Assembly: GCA_963556255.1 (NCBI GenBank) | Contig: OY744614.1 | Coordinates: forward strand, 1,336,747-1,400,746 | DNA length: 64,000 nt | From: Allolobophora icterica | Lineage: Eukaryota > Annelida > Clitellata > Crassiclitellata > Lumbricidae | Direction of reading: 5' to 3' | Part shown: positions 5,162-59,290 of the stretch, piece by piece | How the letters are laid out: each line of letters opens with the position of its first letter | Numbering within the stretch: position 1 is the first letter of the stretch | Made by a program: the position numbers and the translations under genes | Notes under the pieces: generated by a model | Seen by the model: the letters and a program-made list of their open reading frames with translations, nothing else | Told to the model about the DNA's origin: nothing | The model's database searches: none

Positions 5162-5925
5162 GAGAGTGTGGTGCTAGTAAATTACATATATAACACATTG
5201 ATTAATGAGTATCTATATTACAACCATCCAACATTTGGTTCTTGGATGTCGCATATGGTTTGATTTGGTTTATGTATTGGAGTAAAATCAATATTATATT
5301 ATATAGTGCTGTATTATTGTGTTGCAATAAAGGAAATATACATGTAATTGTAACTTGAATGCATTGAAATCAAACTTGAGACAATTATGCTCATATATGC
5401 TTTGTTAATTAATAAAACTTATAGTTGACTGTGTTAGATACCTGAACAATTTCTTTAAAAAGGAACTTGGTATAACCATATGTTTCATTTAATGTGCATG
5501 ATGTATGTGAAATTTATTACTATTTCATACATGATATGACTGTAGTGGCAGATATTGAACTGAGGAATAAGAAATAATCAATTAAACATTTCAAAGATAA
5601 AATAAGAATATAATGTCATAATTATAATTATATGTACTGTGCATCTGAAGTTGTTTAAATATTTCTTGCGAGTGACAATAGTTGGGAAGTACTGTTTCAT
5701 TTGTATCAAAACAGTTTAGAGCTATGTGTTTTATAAATAACATTAGATATATTGCTTTAAATGATGTGAAATTATTGATATTGTAAGCTTATGTTTGACA
5801 CCTTTGAATGGTGTCTTTCGGACACTAAGTTTATCGTTTTCTGTAAACTGTATTTCTAAATTGTCGTCAACGGCCTTTGGTGTCATAAGACGACGTTAAA
5901 CTGTGGAATAAAAAAAAAATATTCG

Positions 5926-6754: not shown

Positions 6755-7185
6755 AAGGCCAACGTTGGTAAAATTATAGGCCAACGTATGTGATAAGACA
6801 AATGCCTGTTATTGGGCCAACTCAGAGTAAGATCAACGTAGGTAATTAAGTAGGAAGACCAAAACAGGTCATAATGCCAACGTAGGTAATGCGGCCATGA
6901 TCGGGTAATGAGGCCAACGTAAACAAAAAGGACAGCGGCCCCAATTTGGTCAACGCAGGCAATAAGGCCAACGTCGGTAAGTAGGCCAACATAGGGAAGT
7001 AGGCCAACGTAATTAGGATAACGTAGGGAATTAGGCCAACATAAATAAGTAGGCCAATGTAGGTAATTAGAACACGGTAGGTAATTAGGCCAACATAGAG
7101 AAGTATGCCAATGTAGGTAATTAGAACACGGTCGGTGTTAGGCCCACGTAGGTAATTAGTCCAACGTTGGTGATTAGGCCAAGTT
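6755..7185 (+). repeat. 18-bp minisatellite, largest array
   Basis: About 20 degenerate copies of an 18-mer around GGCCAACGTAGGTAATTA. The spacing is irregular and there are many substitutions. Partner arrays are at 1631, 38470 and 59145. It is not a CRISPR array: there are no unique spacers, and the repeat is contiguous. Confidence 0.8.
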
Positions 7186-10968: not shown

Positions 10969-11989
10969 TAGTCCAGTCATTAAACAACAATTTTTAATAG
11001 AGGTTCAACAAAATTTGAAGAAAAGGTTTCTCGATGGGTTTCACCTCTCTGATACGTCTACATCACAGGAAAAAAAGGTTACCAAAATATGACTTGGGGA
11101 ACTATGTGAAAATGGGTCAAATCCAAGATGGCCGTCGTCAAAATTAACAAAAGTGGAAAAAAATTCATATATGGAACCACTCAAGCTAAAAACATCTATG
11201 ATGAGTCTATTCATATCAGCATATACACATACATGCTATAGAATGTAATTTTCAAGTTAAATGTTAAAAAAACAAAATGGCGACCAAGGTTTGACGAAAA
11301 CAAGCAAAATTATCATATCTACATATCTAACGGCTATAGTCCAGGCAATTTGCAGTTAGACCTGGGCGAAATTGCTTCAGAAGCTTTTTAAACGGTTTCC
11401 TGCTCAGGAACCACTGCTGAATAAGATATCCAAAATCCCCTCAAATCGGACCACGGGAACACCTTCAAATTGCCAAATCCAATATGGCCGCCATCAACCA
11501 TATTGGAAAATTCACCTTTTCTGTTTTTTAGAGTATATGCACGTGTAATACCTCTAATGTGACTGAATTCTGTATGTAGAATTCATTTCTGATGTTGTTT
11601 TCGCCAAGCGGGGTCATCTTCACCTTGAAAGGTCATGGTCAAGGTCATTTTGTTACATCGATGACGCCATCAAGCAAACTTTCCATCATTCGGTAAATGT
11701 AAATTTTTATGTGTTGCTGTTCTTCACCAAGTCTGAGCTCTGCCAATTCTTTTAAGTTTGGCCTCAGTTGGTCGCCGTCATCAAATCAAATCATTTATTG
11801 AATCGAATACACTTTTCAAATCATTTATTGAATCGAATCCACTTTGCCCGTACCAGCACGTAGTTCTAATCGAAGAAAGGTGCCCGTACCAGCACGTAGT
11901 TCTAATCGAAGAAAGAACGCTGTAGTATCTGAGAGAGAAAGAAACTGGAATATACTTGCGGCTACTGTCGAGGATTCTATGCCAATCTG

Positions 11990-12351
11990 CAGAATGTGAC
12001 TGCATCAACTTCCTGCATTATGGACCGTGGTATCTGGAACAGGTCAAAGTGTTGGAGTTCACACATCCTGAGCTCTATCGGCGCTTCTGTGTGAGCCAGT
12101 GGGTTGTTCAGGATGGCCCAGGATGGTTCTGTGTTGTCGGAGGTGGCATGACGGTCGAGCAGACCATCCAGCGAGTGTCGATGGGTCCTGGAGGTCACTA
12201 TGTGGTAGGAGCCACACGCAATGCCACTGCTGTAGCAGAGTTCGAGCTCTTGTTCCAGGATATCGGGTCTACCAGCAGCCTTCTCAATTTTCTCACCTCT
12301 AACCACCCCAACAGCCACACAGAATGCCATCTACAGAAATGTAAACACTAA
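11990..12351 (+). pseudogene. Unrecognised protein fragment 1 inside the foldback element
   Basis: The open frame (from 11956) reads HYGPWYLEQVKVLEF, GGGMTVEQTIQRVSMGPGGH and FELLFQDIGSTSSLLNFLTS, then HTECHLQ. The composition is like a real globular protein. I recall similar uncharacterised proteins in cnidarian and mollusc annotations but cannot name a domain. It ends near a direct repeat (TGTAAACACTAATTCCAGCT, near 12339) that recurs near 12676, suggesting internal rearrangement. Confidence 0.45.
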
Positions 12352-12401
12352 TTCCAGCTGCTGCAACAACATCCCTTCCACAGCTGAAGACTCCATCAAC
12401 A

Positions 12402-12660
12402 ATGGAGAAGGAGATGAACGACCTGTCATCCAAGGAGATGGCAGAGGCGCATAAAGACATGGACATTGCTAAGGAGCGCGGCATGGACCTCTGGCAGGTA
12501 CTCACACACAATTTGCTCTCAGCATCTTCACTGTTCGATAGTGATCTTCCAGCTCACATCAACAAGTCACTACTTGTTGGGGAGATTGAGCCTAGACTGG
12601 ACCTCATCCAATGGCGTGAGGAGTCTACTCTTGCCACACATGTTGCGGTAGATTTCATGT
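12402..12660 (+). pseudogene. Unrecognised protein fragment 2 inside the foldback element
   Basis: Encodes AEAHKDMDIAKERGMDLW and then NKSLLVGEIEPRLDLIQW, followed by ESTLATHVAVDFMS. The last part is homologous to the minus-strand frame at 12960-12700 (GEIEPKLNLTQW..STLVKHVVVDFMS). The same protein segment therefore exists twice in opposite directions. Function unknown; possibly part of the element's own transposition protein. Confidence 0.45.
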
Positions 12661-12699
12661 CTCAGATCTACAAAAATGTAAACACTTATTCCAGCTGCT

Positions 12700-12960
12700 G
12701 CAACAACATCCCTTCCACAGCTGAGACATCTCAATGTAGGAGGCAAGTACCTGATGGATGGATTTCACATTTTGGTAGAAGGATGAAGCTGAGGTTATGA
12801 TGGTGTCGATGGCCACACCAAGATTAGGGAATTGTGCTATTGGAATCTGCTGCATCTTAGACATGAAATCTACCACAACATGTTTGACAAGAGTAGACTG
12901 CTGAAACCATTGGGTGAGATTCAGCTTAGGCTCAATCTCCCCCAATAAGTAGATTGGCAT
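12700..12960 (-). pseudogene. Unrecognised protein fragment 3 (inverted copy, extends fragment 2)
   Basis: The minus-strand frame reads LLGEIEPKLNLTQW, then VKHVVVDFMSKMQQIP, then FPNLGVAIDTIITSAS and SIHQVLASYIEMS. It overlaps fragment 2 by about 35 residues and continues further toward the C-terminus. The two fragments are two copies of one gene, opposed across the centre of the palindrome. Confidence 0.5.
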
Positions 12961-13196
12961 AGAATCCTCGACAGTAGCCGCAATTATATTTCAGTTTCTT
13001 TCTCTCTCTCGGATACTACAGGTCTTCCACAATACTCACACACAATTTGCACGTGTGAATAACAACAGACTCTTTCAGTAATAATGTGAAACTTAATTTG
13101 AGTGTACATGGTCACAGTGAAGAACAGCAACACATAAAAATTTACATTTACCGAATGATGGAAAGTGTGCTTGATGGCGTCATCGATGTAACAAAA

Positions 13197-13665
13197 TGAC
13201 CTTGACCATGACCTTTCAAGGTGAAGATGACCCAGAAAGGCGAAAACAATATCAAAAATGAATTCTACATACCGGTACCAAAATCAGTAACATTAGAGGT
13301 ATTACACGTGCCTGTACTCTAGAAAACAACAAAGGTGAATATTTCAATCTGTCAAAATGACCTTGACCATGACCATGACCTTTCAAGGTGAAGATGATCC
13401 CGAATGGCAAAGACAATATCAGAAATGAATTCTACATACTGAAATCAGCAACATTTGAGGTATTACACGTGCATATACTTTAAAAAACAAAAAAGTTAAC
13501 TTTCCAATCTGCAAAAAAATGACCTTGTTGACCATGACCTTTCAAGGTGAAGATGACCCAGAATGGCGAAAACAACATCAGAAATTAATTCTACATACCG
13601 AAATCAGTAACATTAGAGGTATTACACATGCATATACTCTAAAAAAACAAAAAAGATGAACTTTC
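13197..13665. repeat. Tandem units in the right arm of the foldback element (3 copies, ~150 bp)
   Basis: Three copies of a unit containing GACCATGACCTTTCAAGGTG, AATGAATTCTACATAC and GAGGTATTACACGTG. The left arm has one copy (about 11530-11680). This accounts for the right arm being longer. Confidence 0.7.
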
Positions 13666-14520
13666 CAATATGGTTGATGGCGGCCATATTGGATTTGGCC
13701 ATTTGAAGGTGTTCCCGTGGTCCGATTTGGGGGATTTTGGATATCTTATTCAGCAATGGTTCCTGAGCAGGAAACCGTTTGAAAAGCTTCTGAAGCAATT
13801 TCACCCAGATCTAACTGCAAATTATGTGTATTATTATTGGCATTTCTTAGGAAACCCCCAAATCCGCCATTTTTAAATTCATTTTTGGGGGTGTTCCCGT
13901 GGTCGGATTTAGGGGCATTTTTGATATGTTATTCAGCAATTTTTTTCTGAACAAGAAACCATTTAAAAACCTTCTGATGCAATTTTGCCCAGGTCTAACT
14001 GTAAATTGCCTGGACTATAGCCATTAGATATGTAGATATGATAATTTTGCTTTTTTCGTCAAATCTTGGTGGCCATTTTGTTTTTTTTAACATTTAACTT
14101 GAAAATTACATTCCATAGCATGTATGTGTATATGGTGATATGAATAGACTCATCATAGATGTTTTTAGCTTGAGTGGTTCCATTTATGAAATTTTTTCCA
14201 CTTTTGTTAATTTCGACGACGGCCATCTTGGATTTGACCCATTTTCACATAGTTCCCCAAGTCATATTTTGGTAACCTTTTTTTCCTGTGATGTAGACGT
14301 ATCAGAGAGGTGAAACCCATCGAGAAACCTTTTCTTCAAATTTTGTTGAACCTCAACTGTTTAATGACCGGACTATTACCAATGGACAACATCTGGAATA
14401 GGAATGAGATATATCATATATATTTTCAAAAATTTCAAATGTAGAGGTGTGTAAACAATTCTATGTTTCAGCGTTCGATTGCTTTCATGGCGTGTAGCTA
14501 ACGTTACATTATATTATAAA

Positions 14521-27262: not shown

Positions 27263-27268
27263 AATCTT

Positions 27269-27462
27269 GGATGGATGGATGGATGGATGGATGGATGGAT
27301 GGGTGGAAGGATGGGTGGGTGGGTGGGTGGGTGGGTGGATGGATGGATGGATGGATGGATGGATGGAAGGGTGGATGGATGGATGGATGGATGGATGGAT
27401 GGATGGATGGATGGATGGATGGATGGATGGATGGATGGATTGGTGGATGGATGGATGGATCT
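27269..27462. repeat. (GGAT)n with GGGT stretch
   Basis: GGAT array with a central GGGT block. It borders the 3' UTR of a globin-derived repeat on the minus strand. Confidence 0.95.
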
Positions 27463-27469
27463 AGGAAAC

Positions 27470-27560
27470 GGACGCTTGGTTTCTTTCTTCATTTGAGCTG
27501 AGGGTATCCAGCGTAGAGCTAGCGCTCAACTGCTGCATCCGGTAACCCTCGAGAAGCTTC
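27470..27560 (-). pseudogene. Globin-derived repeat, last ~15 codons plus start of 3' UTR
   Basis: The minus strand reads [13 protein letters not shown], matching KVLEIYRLQELSA at the end of the globin pseudogene at 57605-58091. The stop codon position is AGC here. The same UTR follows (ACCCTCAGCTCAAATGAAGA, then AAGAAACCAAGCGTCC) and an ATCC array. Upstream coding sequence is replaced by a second array (27557-27692). Confidence 0.6.
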
Positions 27561-27692
27561 CATCCATCCATCCATCCATCCATCCATCCATCCATCCATC
27601 CATCCATCCATCCATCCATCCATCCATCCATCCATCCATCCATCCATCCATCCATCCATCCATCCATCCATCCATCCATCCATCCATCCATC
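27557..27692. repeat. (CATC)n array
   Basis: About 33 CATC units directly upstream (minus sense) of the globin C-terminal fragment. It ends at ATCGTAATCGTAACGTC, a flank shared with other globin-derived copies. Confidence 0.95.
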
Positions 27693-29095: not shown

Positions 29096-29430
29096 ATTTA
29101 CCAATCATTTAGTCGCTTCCCGTCAACGACCCTGACAGAAACAAGATTTTGTTAGTACAATTGACATCAATACATGAAATCCAAGGCACCAGTTTAGACA
29201 CCTTTTAAACGCCTTCATTTCTAGGTATAGATATACGTCAATCCCGTTTAATCGCCAGAATACGTAAACAGCCCCTTTGAAAGTTAAGGTCGTCGTCAAC
29301 TGAACGGACATCGAGAAGATGTCGTTGAACACAATCTAAGGCTTTGTTTGAATTGTGGTATCTTCAAATGATTTCTTTCGGATTCTATTTTAAAGTAAGA
29401 ACTGAAAAGAAGTGTCAGGGCATGAAGTTT
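29096..29430 (+). repeat. A-repeat copy, full length
   Basis: Contains TTAGACACCTTTTAAACGCC (29193), AAGGTCGTCGTCAACTGAAC (29287) and GAAGATGTCGTTGAACACAA, and ends GTCAGGGCATGAAGTTTAGA before a TAA array. Confidence 0.8.
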
Positions 29431-29431
29431 A

Positions 29432-29529
<98 letters not shown>

Positions 29530-29547
29530 TAATAATAATAATAATAA
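29431..29547. repeat. (TAA)n
   Basis: Tail of the A-repeat. Confidence 0.95.
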
Positions 29548-29662
29548 CGGCCCGCCGTGTGATTAAATTGCGTCGAATAAAAAACACGTTGTCAGTGCGA
29601 CGTCTTTGTGACGCAAACACGCCTACGCCAATCAGAAGACTATTAAAATAACCCAAAGATAA

Positions 29663-30000
29663 TTAACCCCTTGCCTGGGGAAGCCGCATATATACGTCAT
29701 AGCGTAGCCTTCCGGCAGCCGGGGAAGCCGTATAGACATGTATGCGTCAAGCACGGTATTGATTTTCGCAGGCTTGTGCAGGCACGTAACTAGGATTTTT
29801 CGTTTGGGGGCTTAAGCCTTGAACATGGCAACATTTATACAGTGTTCATACGAATTTTAGCCGTAAGCATACAACGGCTTGACTTGTTTGGGGGGCTTCA
29901 ACTTCGTTTGGGGGGCTTAAGCTCCCCAAGCCCAACGCTAGATACGTCCCTGGGCTTGTGGATGCCGAATAAATACGTCGTACAAGAGTAGCGACCCTTG
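29663..30000 (+). mobile_element. Possible piggyBac-like terminus with ~50-bp internal repeats, split by a hAT MITE
   Basis: TTAA (29663-29666) followed by CCCCTTGCCTGGGGAAGCCG. Three imperfect copies of a GCCG.ATA..TACGTC.TA motif follow at about 29685, 29723 and 29965. The last copy lies beyond the hAT MITE (29779-29952). The distal end was not found. Confidence 0.4.
29779..29952. mobile_element. hAT-type MITE, 174 bp, perfect 8-bp TSD
   Basis: Ends CAGGCACGTAACTAGG and, inverted, CAGGGACGTATCTAGC, flanked by GGCTTGTG on both sides (29771-29778 and 29953-29960). An 8-bp duplication and CA(G)G termini fit hAT. The interior has TTTGGGGGGCTTAAGC repeats. Confidence 0.8.
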
Positions 30001-30480
30001 GCCGTAGCACAGGCATAGGCTAATCCTAGCCAGAGGTGATCCCCAGATATAACTTTTAAGGACATGGAAATGGATACCAACGCTTGGGATAGGCTGCCTA
30101 GTAGTCGGAGCTAGCATTGATAGCCTAGACTGGAGAGAGGGAGAAAGTAACCACGGAGGATGGGAGATAACCTGGCCCGAAGATAGACGATAGCGAGTTT
30201 TCCTCCGAGTAAGAGAGCTAAGCCTAGGTCTGAGGATAGGGCTGGCTAGTGTTATTTTAGAGGACTGGCTGAGGAAGTGTTGAAATATAGGCGAAGATTG
30301 AAAGAGAAGTTTGAGATAGTTGGGTTCTGGTCGTTCTCGCAATCGGACGCTCGCTTCTGAGGAGGCAGAACCTTATGGGCGAGAATGAACTCAAACAGTC
30401 GTTGTAGAATCATGTCTAATACCAAGTACTGTAGATACTACAGCAGTTGTCTCGTGTAGAATAGTTCTTAATTCATTGCT
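29961..30480. other. Unassigned stretch
   Basis: A 134-codon minus-strand frame (30342-29938) crosses the MITE boundary and is therefore unlikely to be a gene. Composition is balanced and I recognise no motif. Confidence 0.4.
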
Positions 30481-30482
30481 CC

Positions 30483-30760
30483 ATCAATCAATCCATCCAT
30501 CCATCCAACTCGACTGAATATTATAAGAACAGTTGCGTGTCACAATTTGGCAACTCTCCACTTAAATTCGAAATTAGTAGTGTCAAGATAGAATTGCCTT
30601 AAACGTGCCGGTCTTGGTTGAGGTGTGCCACTCCACCTGGATTTTCAGGCTCTCGAACGTCTGGAAAAAAAACAGCGCCGTGCTTCGTCAAGAATTCATT
30701 AATCGTAATCGTATCCTTGGGTATTTTTGTATGGAAGGAAAGGTCGCGGTCAGCCCAACA
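30483..30760 (+). repeat. 3' flank of a globin-derived repeat (coding part absent)
   Basis: A short ATCC run (30489-30507), then TTTGGCAACTCTCCACTT, GTGCCACTCCACCTGGATTT, TCAGGCTCTCGAACGTCTGG and AAGAATTCATTAATCGTAAT. The same flank follows the globin copy at 47440-47751 and lies inverted at 46290-46512 and 57225-57470. Confidence 0.65.
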
Positions 30761-31029
30761 GACAGCCACAAGGTGTCGCCAAACACTTTTACAATTCTAC
30801 ATGAAATCCACAGTTCCAGTTAGACACCTTTAAAAAGGTGCTTTTCTCAACTACGTATTCACCAGGTTCATTCGGTAAATTTAATCTTCGGGTACATTAC
30901 GAGGTCGACTTTAACGTAAGTGACAACCTCAAGGTGTCGCTAAGCACTAAATAATGCTGCATTAAATAATTAACTTCTATGTTCAGTTGTATTTTATTGT
31001 ACTGTATAATTTTTTTTGGAAGTTCATGA
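30761..31029 (+). repeat. Two 180-bp units
   Basis: Cores GACAGCCACAAGGTGTCGCC (30762), TTAGACACCTTTAAAAAGG (30819) and CCTCAAGGTGTCGCTAAGCA (30928). Directly downstream of the globin-repeat flank, as at 27700. Confidence 0.6.
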
Positions 31030-31230
31030 TTAGGGAGGGGATAGAGTAATGGTAGCACTCATGGCCAGGAGAGCATATAGATAGCGGATAGATTCCCGTA
31101 ACCCCCTCTAGGACGGCGCCTTGCATGGCTGCCAAACCGTGTGTTTAGTCAAGATTTGATTTTACTGTCATGGTTGAATGTAATCTTACTGCGTTTGTCA
31201 GTTTTAATTAATAAAGGAAAGTATTAAATT
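31030..31230 (+). mobile_element. SINE-b copy
   Basis: A-box-like GATAGAGTAATGGTAGCACT, a degenerate B box GGATAGATTCCCGTAACCCC, and GACGGCGCCTTGCATGGCTG. The tail CTTACTGCGTTTGTCAGTTT is followed by TAATTAATAAAG. Confidence 0.7.
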
Positions 31231-31234
31231 TTAA

Positions 31235-31665
31235 ATTATTACATCCGCGACTGAAGTAAGAGACCCATTCTCAGCTACATATTCACCAATCGCGTTTAAT
31301 CGTTCTCAGCTGTTAAGTGTAACAGGGCTGGATAGAATAGAGGGTGGGTCAATAGGAGGCCCCAAAAGGACCAAGGTCCCGCTGGACAAGGCCCCTATTT
31401 ACCGAATTGAGTGTGCACCTATGGCCATAATGAGCCAGAAGTGAACCAGAGGATCAATTGTTTCCCACTTAGCATTTGAAGCCTTCATCGGAAGAACCAC
31501 TAGAGTCCATTTTTGACATTTTTGAGTTAACTGTGTCCTGTGATACTTAATGCTATAGAGCATGGATTTACAAGTGTGTTTTTCAGAAAATTCACGTCAT
31601 TCCAGAGTTACAGTGGGAAGAAAATATAATGTTCATGCAAAAACCACTAGAGTCCCTGGACTTAA
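31235..31665. other. Unassigned stretch
   Basis: A degraded unit near 31260-31310. Beyond that, a segment in which AACCACTAGAGTCC occurs twice (31495, 31647), about 152 bp apart, suggesting a duplicated unit or element. No gene. Confidence 0.35.
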
Positions 31666-38185: not shown

Positions 38186-40104
38186 GATCCTACAGAGATT
38201 ACTCGGTGCTTGGTCCTGAGACAGACCATACGATGCTCTATGACACCAGCTGCTGAAGCCAGGATGACGATCGAGCATCACGTGTCCCAATCTACGCCCA
38301 CAGGGCTACAAAATAATCGTTAGGTGGCGCCAGTAACGATGAAAGGCGGCATCTTGAACGAGTGGACAGGACATTCTCGCTTATATGCTGAGGGCTAGAA
38401 AATGATGTCGCCGGCACTACCTAACCACGTATGCCTCGATCGATACAGACTCTAACTGGCTAGGATATGCAGGTTGGCCTAATTACCTACGATGGCCTAA
38501 TTACCTACGTTGGCCTAATTACCACATTGACCTAATTACTTATGTAAGCCTAATACTGGCCGTGTTCTAATTACCTACATTGGCCTACTTCTCTATGTTG
38601 GCCTAATAACCGACGTTGGCCTTATTGACTGCGTTGACCGATTTACCAACGTTGATCTTATTACCGATGTTGGCCTTGTTACCTTAAAGTCATCAAGAAC
38701 AGGAAGATGAAATAGAATTGCCCTTAGGCCTATAGAAAAGAATTTTTTTCTGTAAAAGTTAGGCACATACCACTTCACGCTCTAGCACAGCTCTACTGTA
38801 GTTCTTTCTCTAAAATATATTTCAGAACAAATTATTTGAAGATACCGGAATTAAAAAATCCATTCAGTTGACGACGACCTTGGAATTAACCGCAAAGAAA
38901 TGTGACGTATAAACGCCGTTGACGATCATCTATACCTACAAAAGGAAGCGTTTAAAAGGTATCTAAGCGGGGCGGTGGATTTCACAAATAATGCCCATTG
39001 CACTAAAGACATCTAGTGATTGCCAGGGTTGTTGATGGGAACCCAAGCGATTAAACGTTTTGCCTTGAAACAGTGATATATGCTGGCCGCTTAATTCAAC
39101 GAGGGCTTGTCCCATTGAGCCTGCCAATGTGAGGGCATTGTCTCTGCGTCATCGATCACCGTCTTGGAGGATCACCCACACTTCGCGGCTAGGAGCTCAG
39201 CATCCCGTGTAAGCTGGGTAGAGGTTAAGATGGAGGATTAGAGGGGAGAGTGCCCGCGGCTGAAGCCAAAAATGCAGGAAGTTCCAGCGACGGCACCCTC
39301 CAGAATTATTATTATTATCATTAATATATTATAGTTATTATTAATCTAAACTTCATTCCCCGAAATTTATTTGCAGTTCTTTCTTTAAAATAGAATCCGA
39401 AAGAAATCATTTGAAAATACCGGAATTCAAACAAAGCCTTACTTTGTGTTTAACAACATCTTCTCGATGTCCGTGACTCCGTTCAGTTGACGACGACCAT
39501 GCATTTCACCGTATTGATTAACTAATCTGGCGAATAAACGCGACCTACGTAATCTACGCCTGGATACGAAACGTTTTAAAGGTGTTTAAACTGACGCAGT
39601 TGATTTAATGTATTATGTCCATTGTACTAACGACATCTTGCGACTGTCAGGGTCGTTGACGAGAACGCTAAGGAGATTCGAAGGAATTGCTATCCAAGCG
39701 ATTAAACGATTGGTTAATACATGGCGCAATTTGCCTTGCGCACTAGGAGTACCCGTGCCCCACCTTTTTTTAAATCAATTAGCTTAAGGTTGGATAAGGT
39801 CGACATCAACGGTCTTTGCAACAATAAGATATCGCTAAACAGTGGTAACTACTGCTACTACGCGTATCTGGTAGTGCCAGTCCCCAAGCCTAGATAAAGA
39901 AGGAGGGTGACGCTGATCATCTATGTTCTCAAACAGCCTCGTTAAACAATAGCAAACCTTTTTCCATGTTTGTTATTAGTTCATTTGTTCGCTACACAAT
40001 GCTTACTATAATTAATAAATTAAACAAGTTAAATTGTGATGGCAATTGTGACAATTTCTATAATATCGTCAGTAGCAAGTTACTTCTAGGATGCTATAGA
40101 ATGG

Positions 40105-45740: not shown

Positions 45741-45889
45741 ATTAGTTTAGTTTAATTAGTTTCTGTTTAAAGACACACTGTGTGATCACATAAGATTAGT
45801 GTTACCCTCCTCCTTAAGCGCCAGTCCAAAGAGTGCTAATCAAGTTTGCCATCCGAATTGCTGAATGAACGGAATTCCTAGATTATATT

Positions 45890-46240
45890 GCTGAGAACGG
45901 CTGCGTTTTAAATGTATCTAACTGTAGCCGTGGATTAATTGCTGCATTATTCAGTGTTTAGCGCCATCTCGTGGATGTCAGTTACGTTGAAATCGATCTT
46001 CCACTTCTGATCCCATGGGTCATCATTATCCGTAACAGCTACTAACTGCTGAAAGCGATTGAATATTATAGCTCAGAATAGTTCAGTTTTAAAGGTGTCT
46101 AAATTCAGTCGTGGATTTAATCAAAACCTTCTATATACAATACAATACAATAGCATACAATCTAATACAACTGTGCATAGAAGATAATGATTTAAAGCAG
46201 CATTATTTAGTGTTTGGCGACAACTTGTGGCTTTTGGATG
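45890..46240 (-). repeat. Two head-to-tail 180-bp units
   Basis: TGCGTTTTAAATGTATCTAA (45901) and AGTTTTAAAGGTGTCTAAAT (46084) are about 183 bp apart. GCCATCTCGTGGATGTCAGT (45963) and GCGACAACTTGTGGC (46217) follow at matching offsets, with a TACAA run at 46136-46150. A clear example of the unit period. Confidence 0.75.
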
Positions 46241-46289
46241 CGTTGACACAAGTAGATAAAAAAAAGTTAAGATTACGAATAGTGAATTC

Positions 46290-46512
46290 TTGACGAAACA
46301 CGGCGATAAGTTATACAAGTTTTTCAGATATTTGGATAACCTGAAAATCCAGGTGGAATGGCAAGCCTCAAACAAGACCAGTGTAGGACTATTTGAGGCA
46401 CTTCATCCTTGTCTCTCCTAACTTCGTAGTTAGGTAGAGGGTTGCAGAATTGCAACAGTTATCGAACACAACATGCGGGAAGAATGTATAAAAGTCCATT
46501 TCGTTCCAATTC
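46290..46512 (-). repeat. 3' flank of a globin-derived repeat
   Basis: Minus strand: GAACGAAATGGACTTTTATA, TTTGAGGCTTGCCATTCCAC, CTGGATTTTCAGGTTATCCA and CGTCAAGAATTCACTATTCG. Matches 57225-57470 and 47839-48110. Confidence 0.65.
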
Positions 46513-46513
46513 A

Positions 46514-46690
46514 GTGGATGGATGGATGGATGGATGGATGGATGGATGGATGGATGGATGGATGGATGGATGGATGGATGGATGGATGGATGGATGGATG
46601 GATGGATGGATGGATGGATGGATGGATGGATGGATGGATGGATGGATGGATGGATGGATGGATGGATGGATGGATGGATGGATGGATGGA
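46514..46690. repeat. (ATGG)n, about 44 units
   Basis: Array upstream (minus sense) of the globin-repeat flank. On its right is GACACGGTAGCCAATTGGTT, a SINE-a head piece, not globin. Confidence 0.95.
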
Positions 46691-47162
46691 TGGTTGGATC
46701 GATGGATGGATGGATGGATCGATCGATTGATGGACACGGTAGCCAATTGGTTAAATCAGTTCCATGAATTGTCATTAATTAATCCATCCGTTAATATATA
46801 GCATCAGGAGGAAATATTTTCTTAAACTGCCATAATGTCTGTGCTCAGCATCTACTTTCCAGAAATCGCTTTCTTGACATAAGAAGGGTCTTCTATGAGA
46901 AGTGAAACCGTATCCAGCAACATTTTTAACTGAAGAATATTCCAATCGATTGAGACGCGGACAAATCTATACAACACGTGGAGTATACGTGCGTATGTGT
47001 ATAAATGTCTCTATCTGGCTCTCTGTATGAGTGTGAAGGTTAACGTTGTGATTCAGATCAACGTAGGAACCGTTTCTTCCGTTCATATTTTAACCTGAAG
47101 ACCAAGAATAAAGACGTTCGATCCCAAGACCAAGACCAAGACTTAAAAAAACGGACACCTGT

Positions 47163-47200: not shown

Positions 47201-47439
47201 ACTGGTGCACACTGGTGCACAACGAATGCACAACAAGACTGCGTAACTGACATTAACAAGATGTCGCTAAATTCTAAATATTAAATCATGAACTTATATT
47301 CACAGTTGCATCGTATTGTGTTGTATTCTATATAGAACTTCATGATTTAATCCACGAATAACGGTTAGACACCTTTAAAATGTGTTCATTCACAGCTACA
47401 TGTTCTCCAGTCGCGTTACTAGCGACATTGTTTCCCCCA

Positions 47440-47751
47440 GACGAATTTCTGTATGACTCGTTGTTCAAGAGCCACGGCTCGAAGTTCATGCACGCCGTCG
47501 ACCTCGTTCACCTCAACCTCGACGCACTTAACATCATCATCACTCAGAACCTCATCTGGTTGGGTGGGGGGGATCATGCGAGGATCAAAACTTCGGGTTG
47601 GACTTCCTCGACGTCTTCCAGGCGGCGATGATGGACGTCTGGCGGATGGTTCTCGGTTGGAGGAGGTTCGACCGGATATGCAGGCGCTCTTGGAAAAAGA
47701 TCTTCCGACTAATCACTTCGAAGGTTCTCGTGGGTTACCTGTTTCCTAAAC
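47440..47751 (+). pseudogene. Globin-derived pseudogene, 5'-truncated copy
   Basis: The frame reads FLYDSLFKSHGSKFMHAVDL, HLNLDALNIIITQNLIWLGG and DHARIK. A frameshift follows near the F helix, and a second frame continues FGLDFLDVFQAAMMDVWRMV and WKKIFRLITSKVLVGY. It is homologous to 57605-58091. His in KSH (E7 position) and in GDHAR (F8 position) are both present. The start is about residue 50 of the globin. It lies directly after a 180-bp unit (core TTAGACACCTTTAAAATGTG at 47367) and leads into an ATCC array. There are no introns. Confidence 0.75.
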
Positions 47752-48110
47752 CCATCCATCCATCCGTCCGTCCGTCCATCCATCCTTTCGTCCATCTATC
47801 CATATATTCATCCATCCATTCTTCCATCCATCCGTAACACGGACGGCAGTTGATCTGAACTTTATTTACATTCTTCTCACTTGGGGTTGTGTTCATTGCG
47901 TTTAACAATTTGGCAATCCTCTTCCTAACTTCGAAGATAGGAATGGCAAGGTTGAGGTTCCTGAAATACGCTGGTTATGTTTGAGGTTTGCCACTCCACC
48001 TGGATTTTCAAGCTCTCTAAAAATCTGGAAATAACTTATTTGCCGTGTTCCATGAAGAATTCACTAATCGTAGTAGTAACCTGGGAATTTTTATTTACCT
48101 GTCTGAAAGG
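47752..48110 (+). repeat. (ATCC)n and 3' flank of the globin-derived repeat
   Basis: An imperfect ATCC/GTCC array (47752-47838), then TTTGGCAATCCTCTTCCTAA, TTTGCCACTCCACCTGGATT and GAAGAATTCACTAATCGTAG, shared with 30483-30760. Confidence 0.75.
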
Positions 48111-49232: not shown

Positions 49233-50893
49233 CCTTCGCAGGACGGAAAGGGGTAAATAATTACCCCAGCGGTGTTTGGATGTTGATTGCGGAGCAACTG
49301 TAGGTAGGTATCATTTGTCGTTCCACATGTTTACAAGTTACCACCAATGACATATTCTGACTGCATACCCACCACATTGCCATGTGGTGGGAAAAAGATA
49401 TTTCAATCCAAAGTGTCCTGGGGTAAAAATTTACCCCTCTTCGTCCTCGACGTCGTTATTTTTTCGTTCCTAGGGCAGATATGTTTTTTAAAGATATGAG
49501 CTCATAAGTGACTTGCAATCATAAATCAAGTGTGGAATCTACCACGGAATTGATTGTTAACAGTTTCATAATTGTGGAGAGTTTATTTTCCAAGATGGCC
49601 GCCAATATGGACGCCAAAACAAAAATGTGTATGTCTGAGCTCATAGGTAAGCTACAATGACAAATGAAGTGTCAATTGCAATATTTCCAAAGTCAAGGAA
49701 TCGATTTATCGTAGTGCCAATCGTGTATGAGTACTACTGTCCAAGATGGCGACCAACATGGCCGCCAAAACACAAAAATGTGTATATCTCGGCTCGTAGG
49801 TAAGATACAATGACAAATGAAGTGTCAATAGTAGCATTTCCAAGGTCAGGGAATTCATTTATCGTAGTGACAATAGCGTGGGAATGCTAATATCCAAGAT
49901 GGCGGCCAATATGGCCGCCAAAACAGAAAATAAGGGATTATCAATCAACTGACTGATCGGTCGCTATTGCCACTGCGATAAATCGATTCCTTGACCTCGG
50001 TAATGTCACAATTGACACATCATTTGTCATTGCAGCTTACCTACAAGCTGAGATATACATATTTTTGTGTTTTCGCGGCCATGTTGGCCGCCATCTTGGA
50101 AATTAGTATTCCCACACGATTGCCACTACGATAATTTGATTTTCTGACCTTAGAACTGTTACAATTGATACCTCATTTGTCATTGTAACCTACCTATGTG
50201 CTGAGATATACATATTTTGTGTTTTCGCGGCCATTTTGGCCGCCATCTTGGAAAATAGTATTGCTACACTATTGTCACTATGATGAATCGATTCCTTAAC
50301 CTTGAATATGTTACAATTGACACTTAATTTGCAATTTTAGCTTACCTATGAGCTGAGACATAATATTGTTTGTCTGGCAGACATATTGGCCGCCATCTTG
50401 GAAAATAATATTCCCACACTATTGCCACTACGATAATTCGATTCCTTGACCTTGGGAATGTTACAATGGACACTTCATTTGTCATTGTAAATTACTTATG
50501 AGCTGAGACATACATATTGTTATGTTTTGGGCGGCCATGTTGGCCGCCATCTTGGAAAATAGTATTCGCACACTATTGCCACTATGATAAATCGATTTCT
50601 CGACCTTGAAAATGTTGCAATTGACACTTCATTTGTCATTGTAGCTTACCTACGTGCTGAGATACACATTTTTGTGTGTTTTGGCGGCCATATTGGCCGC
50701 CATCTTGAAAAGTAGTATTTGCACACTATTGCCACTATGATAAATCGGTTCCTTGACCTTGGAAATGTTACAATTGACACTTCATTTGTCATCGTAGCTT
50801 ACCTGTGAGCTGAGATATTATACATTATTTTGGGGTAAAAAATTACCCCTCTTCGTCCTCCGTGTATCGTAAAATCTTTCCGTCCTGCGAAGG
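49233..50893. mobile_element. piggyBac-like non-autonomous element, TTAA duplication
   Basis: TTAA at 49229-49232 and 50894-50897. Inverted ends are CCTTCGCAGGACGGAAAG on both sides (18 bases identical). A subterminal GGGGTAAA..TTACCCC..CTTCGTCCTC block near the right end also occurs internally at 49423-49455. No transposase. TTAA targets and C-rich terminal repeats fit piggyBac-type cut-and-paste elements, though Kolobok also uses TTAA. Confidence 0.8.
49586..50820. repeat. Palindromic array of ~152-bp units (3 forward, 5 inverted)
   Basis: Forward units carry CCAAGATGGC(G/C)(G/A)CCAA at about 49591, 49741 and 49893. Inverted units carry GGCCGCCATCTTGGAAA at about 50086, 50239, 50388, 50541 and 50694. 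Each unit also has ACAATGACAAATGAAGTGTC and a GATAAATCGATTCCTTGACC-like block. The switch of orientation is near 49930-49970. Confidence 0.85.

Positions 50894-52111: not shown

Positions 52112-52116
<5 letters not shown>

Positions 52117-52149
<33 letters not shown>
52117..52149. repeat. (TA)n
   Basis: Left-flanking TA array of the mariner element. Confidence 0.9.
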
Positions 52150-52151
<2 letters not shown>

Positions 52152-53114
52152 CGTGTCTCAAAATAAACTGTGCAAAATTGTTTCTTTCAGAACTTCGTCA
52201 AATTTCCACCAATTGTAATAATTTTTGGTAGGTAGATGGCAAAATGGCTGAAATTTTATGCTATACATAAATTTTCCACCTCACCTGACTCATGTCACCG
52301 CACTACCTTGTTAAACACAGATGTACCAATTTCTTATAAAACGCTTAAATTTTATTACATGCAACAAACTATCTGACGACTTAATTAGCACGCAGTAAAG
52401 TAAAATATGGTTTACTTAGCAGAGTTTTTAATTGTTATGACAGATCTGCTTAAAAGTGTTAGAATTGGTCCTCGAAATGTGCCCGCTTACACGGACACAA
52501 GCGCTTAGACGGCCGATAGCAGCATCAACGATCGACTGGTCAAAGCGCGCCCACTCGTCGATCAGACGCGTTTTGAGTTCGTCGACGTTGGCTGTTCTGG
52601 AGCGGTAAACCTTTTCCTGCAGCACACTCCATATGCTATAGTCGACTGGGTTAAGATCCAGTGAATTCTGCGGCCAGTGTTGGAGGTATGAAGTCGGGCG
52701 TTTCTCGCTCCAGGAAAGAGACAGTGTCGCATGTGCTCGATGCGCCGGGGCGCCATCCTGTTGAAAGACAAAAACTCGCCCTGGGATATCCGGCGTATGT
52801 CTGGCAGTAGCTTCTGGGAAAGAAGGTTGTCGCGATATTAGGCCCCATTCACTTTGACACCCGGCTCGATGAAATGGATTTCAGTGCAGCCAAGTTTCGA
52901 GACGCTAGTTGTTAAAATTTAAGCGTTATATAAGAAATTGGTACATCTGTGTTTAAAAAAGTAGTGCGGTGACATAAGTCAGGTGAGGTGGAAAATTTAT
53001 GTATAGCATAAAAGTTTAGCTATTTTGCCATCTACCTACCAAAAATTATTACAATTGGTGGAAATTTGAGGAAGTTCTGACAGAAACAATTTTGCACAGT
53101 TTATTTTGAGACAC

Positions 53115-53117
<3 letters not shown>
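52150..53117. mobile_element. mariner-like element with ~205-bp inverted repeats, in a TA array
   Basis: The outer ends are ACCGTGTCTCAAAATAAACT at both sides (inverted). Identity continues inward for about 205 bp (52150-52360 and 53117-52912) with few mismatches. The middle holds the C-terminal part of a mariner transposase on the minus strand. TA tracts flank both ends. TIRs of this length are unusual for mariner, whose TIRs are usually about 30 bp, so the copy may be a rearranged, partly palindromic derivative. Confidence 0.8.
52440..52900 (-). pseudogene. mariner-type transposase, C-terminal remnant
   Basis: DDE/D transposase of the Tc1/mariner superfamily, which cuts and pastes the element into TA. 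The minus strand reads FVFQQDGAPAHRAHA (second catalytic Asp in QQD). After a frameshift near 52735 it continues WPQNSLDLNPVDYSIW (third catalytic Asp region), then LQEKVYRSRTANVDELKTRL and the end VDAAIGRLSACVRVSG. The N-terminal helix-turn-helix and first Asp are absent. The copy is inactive. Confidence 0.85.

Positions 53118-53206
<89 letters not shown>
53118..53206. repeat. (TA)n
   Basis: Right-flanking TA array of the mariner element. Confidence 0.95.
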
Positions 53207-55897: not shown

Positions 55898-57066
55898 CAG
55901 TGGTTTTCAACCTTTTTGTAGTGACGGAACCCTACACAAGCACTCATTTGCTCGCGGAACCCCGGGGCGTTTTAGCCGTCCATTTTTCCAAGAAATTCAA
56001 GTAATTGTAACTTGTATTGTTGATATATAATGTTTAAATTTTAGAATGTTAAACTTGTAATATAAGTTTTTTGCATCTCTGGTGCAGGCTATTATAAATA
56101 CATACTTTAGTCTAGCGCTCTAGAGTAGTGCACAGAAACAATGTCGGTAAACAACATGTATTTTACTGTATTGTGCCGGCAACCAATTCTGACAGATGGA
56201 TAGAAGAGTTATAGAAACGCTGCAGGGCTGTAAGTAATTAACTTCCAAAATTTCCTTAACTTGAATTATCCTTAAGAGAATAGGCCTACTAGTCACTACC
56301 GCTTTTACCCTTGAGTTTCACCCTAACTCTACTGACGGGTATTGGGACACTCGTCCACGGAGTGCCTTGATACAGCTTCCATCGCTAGTTCCAAGTAGGC
56401 AATAGTGAGCCCCCTGGGGGTCGGGGATTCCAGATTTCGTCCTGCACGCAACAGAACGGCAACAACGGACCAACAACAATTCGCTTACAGGCGGCCGCAT
56501 AGCAGTTTCCGGTCCACTCTAGGGTACCTGCCTCTCTCCCCTTGGTCCTCTCTCGTGGTCCTACCAACGTCTGTAATGGTATGTACCAGTCCTCCGCCCA
56601 GGCTACATATCAGGTTCTACACAACGGTCAGTTAACACGGTGCAATCACAACTGCACCAAGTGGTTGGCACTCGGCTCGACCCAAGGTAATCTCAGCAAT
56701 TCAGGGCTATTGTTGGCACATCCTCCCTCTATCCCAAACGGGAACAGGTCGGGGTAATTAAACTAATTCCACGCCAAGAGGGTTGGCTATATCAGAGCGC
56801 CTAGTTAGCGTATACCCCGCCGTTTACCCGCGTAAAAATGCAATGCAAATATAAAATGCAACGATGCATTCCCGTAATAATGTTAACTATGTTAACATAG
56901 AATTGTGTTTAGCATGAACGCCGGAAAGCTGTGAAGAATTCGGTTATTTGATCATTCTTTTGTGAAATCAGTTGGTGGTTTTAAAATTTAAGACTGCTGT
57001 CGCGGAACCCCTGGCCGACGCCCGCGGAACCCCTGGGGTCCGCGGAACCCCGGTTGAAAACCACTG
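55898..57066. mobile_element. hAT element, 1.17 kb, non-autonomous, perfect 8-bp TSD
   Basis: Ends CAGTGGTTTTCAACCTTTTT and, inverted, CAGTGGTTTTCAACCGGGGT, flanked by ATATAATG at 55890-55897 and 57067-57074. Subterminal GCGGAACCCC repeats occur on both sides. No frame inside resembles a hAT transposase. The middle (56320-56760) is GC-richer and of unknown origin. Confidence 0.85.
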
Positions 57067-57069
57067 ATA

Positions 57070-57224
57070 TAATGTATCTGACAACGGCTCCGTTTTAAGT
57101 GTAGACGTGGATTTTATGTAGCAGTATTTAGTGTTTATCAACATCTTGTGGATGTCAGTTGCGTGGACGGCGACATTACCTTTCAAACAGGTAGCGAAGA
57201 ATAATAATTATTTAGAGGCTACGA
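57070..57224 (-). repeat. 180-bp unit
   Basis: CAACATCTTGTGGATGTCAG (57139), continuous across the hAT insertion with 55895. Confidence 0.6.
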
Positions 57225-57538
57225 TTACGATCAGTGAATTCTTAATGTAACACAACGTTATGTTTTACAAGTTTTTTAAAGATTTTTTTGGAATGTCGAA
57301 CCTCAGCGTGTTTCAGGCAATTCCACCTGCCACTATTAATTCAGAAGTTAGGTAGCGTGTTACCGAAATGCGATAAGTAATGAACACACCTGGAGAAGAA
57401 TGTATATAAAGCCAATTTTGTTCCAAGCAGTCGTGTTGATGCATAAGTGTTCTGTTCCAGCCACTCGCGATGGATGGATGGATGGATGGATGGATGGATG
57501 GATGGATGGATGGATGGATGGATGGATGGATGGATGGA
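57225..57538 (-). repeat. 3' flank and (ATCC)n of the globin-derived repeat
   Basis: On the minus strand an ATCC array (57538-57470) follows the globin UTR. Next come GGAACAAAATTGGCTTTATA, TAACTTCTGAATTAATAGTG and AAGAATTCACTGATCGTAAT. Shared with 46290, 47839 and 30483. Confidence 0.7.
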
Positions 57539-57604
57539 CGCTTGGTTTCTTTAATCATCTGAGCTGAGAGTAGATATCGTCGTAGGGATGCTGTCCATCG
57601 TAGA

Positions 57605-58091
57605 TCAAGCGCTCAGCTCCTGCAACCGGTAAATCTCGAGAACCTTCGAAGTGATCAGTTGGAAGATCTTACTCCAGGTCTGTCTGCACTTCCGGTCGAA
57701 GGTTCTCCGACCGAGAACCATCCTCCAGACGTCCATCATCGCCGCCTCGAAGACGTCGAGAAAGTCCAACCAGAAGTTGTTTATTCTCGCATGATGCCGG
57801 CCCAACCGGATGAGATTCTGAGTGATGATGATGTCGAGCGCGTCGAGGTTGAGGAGGACGAGGTCGACGGCTTGCATGAACCTCGAGGCGTGGCTCTTGA
57901 TGAATGAGTCATTCAGGAGGTTCTCTCTGACAGGAACCGGAAATTGAAGAGACTTTTGACCGACGAAGAGAATTTTCCGGCGAGATCTCGTGACAATTCG
58001 TGAGATCTCGCGCCAAGTCTCGCGGATCGAGCGGAACAGACGAACGGTGCTTCCGGGCAACGGACTTGACGGACGATGAAATACAACCCAT
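57605..58091 (-). pseudogene. Intronless globin pseudogene, globin-X-like
   Basis: A heme-binding globin fold. ATG at 58089-58091 gives MGCISSSVKSVA, an N-myristoylation/palmitoylation-type start as in globin X. Frameshifts follow: IRETWREI in a second frame, then LSRDLAG and VKSLFNFRFLSE in a third (Phe at the CD1 region), then the second frame again to the stop at 57605. That last part reads LLNDSFIKSHASRFMQAVDL (His in KSH = E7), NLDALDIIITQNLIRLGRHH (second His = F8), LDVFEAAMMDVWRMVLGRR and QTWSKIFQLITSKVLE. The usual globin introns (B12, G7) are absent, so it derives from a processed copy. Partial copies lie at 47440 and 27470. Inactive. Confidence 0.8.
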
Positions 58092-58099
58092 CACAACGA

Positions 58100-58275
58100 C
58101 ACTCCTTTCTTCCTTTCACCCTTCTGTCTTCCTTCCTTCTTTCTTTCCTTGTTTCTCTCTCCCTTCTTTTCTTCCTTCTTTCTTTCTTTCGTGCCTTCTT
58201 CCTCCTTACAACGTGCATCCTTTTGTTGTTCCCTTCCTTTTTCCTTGCTTCCTTCTCTGTTTCTTCCTTCTTTCC
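58100..58275. repeat. TTCC/TTTC pyrimidine tract
   Basis: About 175 bp of C/T-rich sequence on the plus strand, immediately 5' of the globin pseudogene start (minus sense, so a GGAA/GAAA-rich leader). Confidence 0.85.
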
Positions 58276-58384
58276 TCCTGATGAGCTGTAATGTAGTTCA
58301 CTTAAGTGGTATGCAAAGTCTCAGAATATTCACATACAGAATGCATGTATTCTTATCTAATCTTATCTACTGAATTCTATGGCG

Positions 58385-59130: not shown

Positions 59131-59144
59131 AGTACTCTGGACTT

Positions 59145-59290
59145 GGACTAATTACCTACTTTGGCCCAGTTACCTACGTTGGCCTAATTACGTACGTCTG
59201 TCTTATTACCGACTCTGGCCTAAATACCTAAGCTGACCTATTTACCTAGTTTGACCTAATTACTGACGTTGGGCTTGTTACCTGCGCTGC
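59145..59290 (-). repeat. 18-bp minisatellite
   Basis: TTACCTACGTTGGCCTAA units, degenerate, followed by the same flank as the arms at 6670-6755 and 38690-38780 (AAGTCATTAAGAACAGACGG, then AAATAGCAGCTCCCTTG). Confidence 0.7.

Follow-up and report, generated by a model that had tools for sequence, protein, structure and literature searches.

In the human macrosatellites D4Z4/DUX4 and RS447/USP17, each repeat unit carries an intronless coding sequence, and the units, which are a few kb long (3.3 kb in D4Z4), are arranged in regular head-to-tail arrays. Chromosome-specific centromeric and pericentromeric satellites have monomers near 170 bp and occur on one chromosome. In bivalves, the elements HINE/Pearl/Cg_HINE, which are non-autonomous Helentrons, are described as having central tandem repeats of about 160-170 bp, a 4-nt microsatellite and a fixed orientation of the repeats relative to the flank (PMC7492417).

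The window analysed here is a stretch of 64,000 nucleotides from Allolobophora icterica (C14:1,336,747-1,400,746). The assembly comprises 1.118 Gb in 328 contigs, here treated as chromosomes on account of their size; C14 is 50.6 Mb long. The locus resembles D4Z4/DUX4 and RS447/USP17 in that a single-exon coding sequence, here a globin, has been multiplied along with a repeat that occupies only one or a few sites on the chromosomes. However, the arrays of those systems are regular, whereas the globin units of C14 are decayed and lie about 80 kb apart on average, on both strands, over about 9 Mb. The monomer length of about 170 bp and the confinement are shared with chromosome-specific centromeric satellites, but the monomers here are highly decayed, cover about 8% of the window and are interspersed with a coding gene, and there is no centromere evidence. 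All three of the HINE/Pearl features listed above are also found here. The differences are that HINE/Pearl elements are genome-wide and the present unit is on one contig, that the order of the parts is not the same, and that here a globin is carried and ends were not found. Whereas a typical satellite is regular and has no coding content, the satellite-like domain of this chromosome appears to carry a host globin as a rider. No description of such a globin satellite was recognised in a literature search of titles and abstracts.

Globin copies in the window

The features that belong to the repeat are as follows, in window positions.

57536-58091, minus strand: globin copy 1, with both coding-region ends kept, a single exon, five frame-changing indels and two stops
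58100-58283, minus strand: purine-rich (AAGG-type) microsatellite leader, upstream of the copy 1 ATG
57469-57538, minus strand: (ATCC)n array directly after the copy 1 C-terminus
57195-57468, minus strand: conserved 3' flank of copy 1
57051-57168, minus strand: satellite-like monomer of about 170 bp, on the copy 1 strand
47449-47743, plus strand: globin copy 2, 5'-truncated, 84.5% identical to copy 1
47240-47417, plus strand: monomer pieces directly upstream of copy 2, on the same strand
47752-47833, plus strand: (ATCC)n array of copy 2
47856-48110, plus strand: 3' flank of copy 2
27473-27558, minus strand: globin copy 3, 3' end only, 86 bp
27268-27460, minus strand: (ATCC)n array after copy 3
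27559-27692: second ATCC/TGGA array beside copy 3, in the opposite sense
30480-30728, plus strand: orphan flank, a short ATCC run and 3' flank with the globin absent (flank match 30533-30728, then monomers 30748-30967)
46248-46734, minus strand: orphan flank in inverted orientation to copy 2, with a (TGGA)n array (flank match 46248-46498, array 46515-46734)
45862-46247: monomers continuing from the 46248 orphan flank
29122-31304, plus strand: run of decayed same-strand monomers, one of several

The initial annotation described copy 1 as an entire intronless globin at 57605-58091. It is indeed a single exon with both ends, but the frame is broken and at least 45 bases are missing in the first third. 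Coding similarity to P0001, an intact protein of 206 aa, continues for about 69 bp beyond 57605, to 57536. The copy begins ATGGGTTGT (MGC), its second half is one reading frame, and it contains the segments LFNFRF, KSHASRF and RLGRHHA, which we take to carry the CD1 Phe, E7 His and F8 His respectively, as well as the C-terminus. Compared with L009, an intact genomic copy, it has deletions of 32, 7, 5 and 1 nt, one inserted nucleotide and two stops. Pfam Globin (PF00042) is matched by the second half alone with 29.5 bits and by a four-piece read-through with 33.4 bits, both passing the gathering score of 22; the first 60 residues alone have no Pfam match. P0001 was the sole protein retrieved with the read-through (one of 49 candidates at E <= 0.01), with 67% identity over 99% of the query. 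It carries PF00042, and its best matches among solved structures are neuroglobins. Rfam and tRNA searches of the window gave no match.

Further partial globin copies had been proposed near 47440-47751 and 27470-27560, and both are real (copies 2 and 3 above). Two flank-only loci, proposed at 30483 and 46290, also hold up: the flank is matched at 30533-30728 (plus) and 46248-46498 (minus), in neither case with a globin match. The ATCC array and downstream flank said to be common to the copies were found where expected. The match of copy 2 to copy 1 scores 322 bits and copy 1 has 48 matches in the genome, so the globin copies in the window are not chance similarities. Copy 3 lies between inverted arrays, because the second array at 27559-27692 runs in the opposite sense. 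The inverted flanks prompted us to consider a foldback element with long terminal inverted repeats; arrays in inverted orientation do occur (46515-46734, 27559-27692), but a search of the surroundings of copy 1 and of the 30483 orphan gave no inverted repeats of at least 20 nt, and this candidate was rejected. The monomer has 56 matches in the window.

By eye, the N-terminal acylation motif is MGCISSS in L009, MGC in P0001 and MGG in the paralogues on C2 and C6 described below. The globin X and globin X-like membrane globins (GbX and GbXL) are similar in three respects, namely an MGC/MGG start that fits N-myristoylation, a single globin domain and a C-terminal tail. GbX and GbXL are reported to be acylated, and arthropod GbX typically to have three introns (PMC7457136), in contrast to the genes read here, which have none.

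Confinement to one contig

When copy 1 was used as a DNA query (40 of 145 candidates scored), all 48 matches were on C14, at 75-87% identity to copy 1. With P0001 as a protein query there were 159 matches, of which 150 are listed (from 150 scored candidates out of 253); the remaining nine, and the candidates left unscored in this and the other searches, could hold weak copies off C14. The globin had been called a dispersed repeat, which is not what was found: 144 of the 150 listed matches lie within 9.25 Mb of C14 (1,065,007-10,310,782), at 112 places (59 plus, 53 minus), a minimum for the family, and the other six, two on C1 and one each on C2, C5, C6 and C13, are to judge from their sequences diverged paralogues (32-44% identity). 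With the 3' flank (query 57190-57445; 40 of 48 candidates scored), every one of the 47 matches fell on C14, and the monomer gave 46 (40 of 1043 candidates scored), 45 of which are on C14 between 1.38 and 14.36 Mb. The only listed monomer elsewhere is a single full-length unit on C9 (L056 753-892, C9:60.219 Mb), and its surroundings contain only weak partial matches, on the other strand and about 500 bp away.

A reverse transcriptase from the window served as a control. Of its 40 matches (from 40 scored candidates out of 3,647), 37 are on C1-C9, C11-C13 and C19 and three, including itself, on C14. Since the control is mostly off C14, the confinement is a property of the globin family and not of the search. 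A genome-wide mobile element was rejected, because the matches of globin, flank and, but for the unit on C9, monomer are confined to C14 with a working control.

A monomer HMM was also run on stretches of 2-4 kb picked without regard to globins. Between 1.38 and 14.36 Mb of C14, monomers are present in nine of 12 samples (2.75, 3.75, 6.05, 7.2, 9.05, 10.7, 11.5, 12.6 and 14.0 Mb) and absent from three (10.45, 12.0 and 13.2 Mb). Outside this range they were found in none of 13 samples, taken at C14 0.5 (with only 1,241 readable bases), 0.95, 1.035, 1.055, 16, 20, 30 and 45 Mb and once each on C1, C2, C3, C5 and C6. They are also absent from two gene-centred 1.2-kb stretches (L029 and L030), which are left out of these counts. 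But for the lone copy on C9, the monomer shows the confinement to one chromosome that is looked for in a satellite, in its listed matches as in the outside samples. The right edge of the domain is bounded only, by the monomer at 14.36 Mb and by the empty 2-kb samples at 16 and 20 Mb. Globins and monomers do not always travel together, because the listed globins end at 10.31 Mb and the monomers reach 14.36 Mb.

The repeated unit and its decay

Of the 112 or more places, 22 copies were read, namely those of 20 loci plus copies 1 and 2 of the window. Six loci contain stretches that are masked or withheld. The usual order, from a consensus of 18 copies, is a short leader ('...TTCATTTACATTACAGCTCATCAGGAGG'), an AAGG-type purine-rich microsatellite, ATGGGCTG and about 200 globin codons, (ATCC)n, a flank of about 300 bp, and monomers. 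By eye, 18 of the 22 copies have the purine stretch (the exceptions are L016, L017, L027 and window copy 2), and of the 14 whose downstream part is visible, 12 have an ATCC-type run (the exceptions are L010 and L021); the leader of several copies is interrupted by other inserted repeats. In the copies shown, no poly(A) tail precedes the ATCC array. Degenerate 18-bp tandem repeats of the GGTAATTAGGCCAACGTA type are seen in the window at 6943-7182, 38473-38684 and 59143-59272, and recur in several loci of the domain.

The old copies have in common a unit of about 1.25 kb, from about -250 to +1000. In pairwise comparison, 98-100% of pairs have collinear non-monomer homology across the globin; this falls to 48% at -250, to 28% at +750 and to 0-11% further out (120 pairs from 16 copies, with six near relatives left out), and the outer flanks differ between copies. 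Large ancestral segmental duplications as the sole process were rejected on this ground. Of the monomers at +600 to +1500, 37 of 38 share the strand of the globin, as do 13 of 16 at -1000 to 0 (18 copies, with four near-identical ones left out). Farther than about 1.5 kb from the globin both strands occur; at -3000 to -2000, for example, eight monomers agree with it and nine do not. Same-strand neighbours have a spacing mode of 160-180 bp, so that head-to-tail monomers of one length, as in a satellite, are present in degenerate form. A long uninterrupted array was not found in the window, where the monomers form short runs and cover 8.2%. Alignment of 52 of the 57 full monomers with 260 bp on each side revealed no conserved outer flank besides further monomers, and no transposon ends were established for the globin unit.

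A full open frame is kept only in L009 (205 aa) and in L011 (201 aa), and the other 20 copies read are broken or partial. The same stop, at codon 5, is present in three copies (L010, L013 and L014), and hence copies that were already broken have been multiplied. A tree of 18 copies, from which the near-identical L020, L023, L024 and L028 were left out, is star-like, with support below 80 for 12 of 15 inner branches and a median end branch of 0.086. On the same 18 copies, nonsynonymous and synonymous changes number 320 and 141 on end branches and 85 and 61 on inner branches (ratio 1.39), where about 2.75-3.14 is expected without selection; the median pairwise dN/dS is 0.605 (153 pairs). The end branches are therefore near neutral and the older history is partly constrained. 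CpG decay is not the driver of the divergence, since CpG observed/expected is 1.07-1.30 in the 22 copies. Most copies are probably without protein function.

Recent copies are duplications of 2.5-6.5 kb, in both orientations. L022, L023 and L024 (C14 8.41, 2.02 and 7.63 Mb) have 6.5 kb in common at 98.8% identity, and L026 and L028 have 3.1 and 2.7 kb at 99.3 and 97.3%. Two pairs are on opposite strands: L019 and L020, with 3.0 kb in common (94.8%), and L015 and L021, with 2.5 kb (92%). L010 and L013 have 2.0 kb in common (91%). On coordinates alone, matching pairs are also found at 3.25-3.30 against 4.12-4.17 Mb, and at C14 5,263,244-5,336,528 the globin and flank matches are in mirror order, as in a large palindrome with arms of at least 25 kb, with a third copy near 9.27-9.30 Mb. 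These pairs suggest inverted duplications of tens of kb.

Origin and spread of the unit

No intron-bearing source gene is present among the matches listed. The paralogues on C2 and C6, as read from the sequence, each have an intact frame in a single exon (237 and 231 aa), and the globin lineage was therefore probably intronless before the amplification. The processed globin that the initial annotation took to have been captured is not needed. Intact members of the amplified subfamily are only on C14 among those found. L009 has the lowest start of all listed globin places (1,065,007), 7 kb to the right of a monomer-free 3-kb stretch (C14:1,055,000-1,058,000), and the first monomers seen are at its locus, from 1,063,531. 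It thus seems to lie near the left edge of the domain, and may be the source or its closest survivor. The empty 3-kb sample does not fix this edge, because the inside samples at 10.45, 12.0 and 13.2 Mb are also empty. The end branch of L009 is short (0.031), and shorter ones are found only in L010, L015 and L021, each of which has a close sister. Its own changes relative to the majority of the other copies are 17 nonsynonymous and nine synonymous, which makes it weak as a source because the constraint is not clearly above that of other copies. L009 was not accepted as a proven source, since its support stops at the intact frame, the place near the apparent edge and the short end branch.

We hypothesise, with a probability of roughly 0.6, that a resident intronless globin became a passenger of a chromosome-specific compound satellite, now decayed, and was copied along with it, with later segmental copying within the domain. 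The domain, from about 1.06 to at least 14.36 Mb of C14 (about 13 Mb), would have been built on the tandem satellite-like repeat of about 170 bp, for which the searches gave hardly any match elsewhere. A resident single-exon globin, together with the microsatellites and the 3' flank of about 300 bp, would have joined this repeat and then multiplied with it as a compound unit. The first spread would have been by satellite-type copying (unequal exchange, or break-induced or rolling-circle copying). Most copies would later have decayed, with transposon insertions presumably separating and diluting them, and later copying would have consisted of larger segmental duplications, in both orientations, inside the C14 domain. 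This proposal draws directly on the confinement, the unit, the orientation of the nearest monomers, the decay of most copies read and the recent duplications. An originally continuous array would be a step further from the data, because monomers make up only about 8% of the window today and were nowhere seen as a long regular array. Further observations run against a satellite: the monomers are of mixed strand away from the globin, the listed globins end before the monomers do, the lone full monomer on C9 is what a mobile element might leave, and a defined unit of about 1.25 kb would fit local transposition too.

The strongest rival, given how short and discrete the unit is, is a non-autonomous transposon of HINE/Helentron type with a strong local insertion preference, which captured the globin. 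It would account for the lone monomer on C9 and for the combination of a 4-nt microsatellite with tandem repeats of about 170 bp, which is as in the oyster HINE/Pearl elements; oyster HINEs, however, are reported to be dispersed over the genome (PMC7492417), whereas here all matches but one monomer are on one contig. In addition, a flank of about 300 bp intervenes between the microsatellite and the repeats, and the 52 aligned monomers have nothing conserved around them but further monomers. We regard such a transposon as possible but doubtful. It is distinctly less probable that a functional globin family grew by segmental duplication in a region of low recombination (for example sex-linked or pericentromeric), with the monomers as bystanders. 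The two intact frames, an inner-branch ratio below the neutral expectation, and recent duplications in both orientations with the mirror order near 5.263-5.336 Mb would all be expected, but the old copies have about 1.25 kb in common and no long segments, 20 of 22 are broken or partial, a stop is shared by three, and two intact frames could be luck.

Independent retropseudogenes of one globin mRNA, made by a LINE, are very improbable. The copies are single-exon, and the genome has a LINE-type reverse transcriptase with many copies at 99% identity, but so are the C2 and C6 paralogues single-exon, all 112 places are on C14, and the 5' leader, the 3' flank and monomers of the same strand are common to the copies, with no poly(A) before the ATCC in those shown. 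A highly repeated domain on a single contig might also raise the question of an assembly artefact, or of a collapsed or misplaced contig; with matches only 75-87% identical to copy 1, outer flanks that differ, and the genome-wide LINE present in the domain as elsewhere, we give this hardly any credence. The initial annotation had proposed a repeat unit with common flanks rather than isolated retropseudogenes, and was right in this. It called the unit mobile or satellite-like, of which the second is the better term. The genome search that it suggested, with the globin protein and the flanks, returned many copies, common flanks and no intron-containing source among the listed matches, and thus none of the results that it had named as contrary.

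Within the compound-satellite hypothesis, a more specific and rather speculative version, which we think unlikely, is that the domain of at least 13 Mb began beside the intact globin at its left edge, grew from the 3' flank of that gene and kept copying it, and that it may mark a non-recombining (sex-linked or centromeric) region. The domain is in any case a candidate marker for a sex-linked or centromere-near region. Its copies are of graded age, from segments 99% identical to ruins, with an apparently intact gene near the edge, and could make it possible to follow the uptake of a gene by a satellite domain, the spread and dilution of the domain, and its change from short-unit to segmental copying. 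The strict confinement beside genome-wide LINE insertions is a natural test of what holds a repeat on one chromosome.

Other repeats were seen in the window. The reverse transcriptase used as a control is a frame of 588 aa at 3407-5173 (minus); all 39 other scored matches are full length over the 1-kb query and 99% identical, 37 of them off C14, and this LINE has therefore been active very recently. Tandem repeats of 153 bp, in both orientations and 82-85% alike, occupy 49589-50818 and are by eye unrelated to the monomer of about 170 bp. At 52116-53151, inverted repeats of 239 nt (95%) surround a weak DDE_3 transposase frame (52428-52880, below the Pfam cut-off), which we presume to be an element of mariner type. 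Finally, inverted repeat arms of 278 nt, 97% complementary and 2.8 kb apart, are found at 11000-14354, and this is likely to be a DNA transposon with long terminal inverted repeats.
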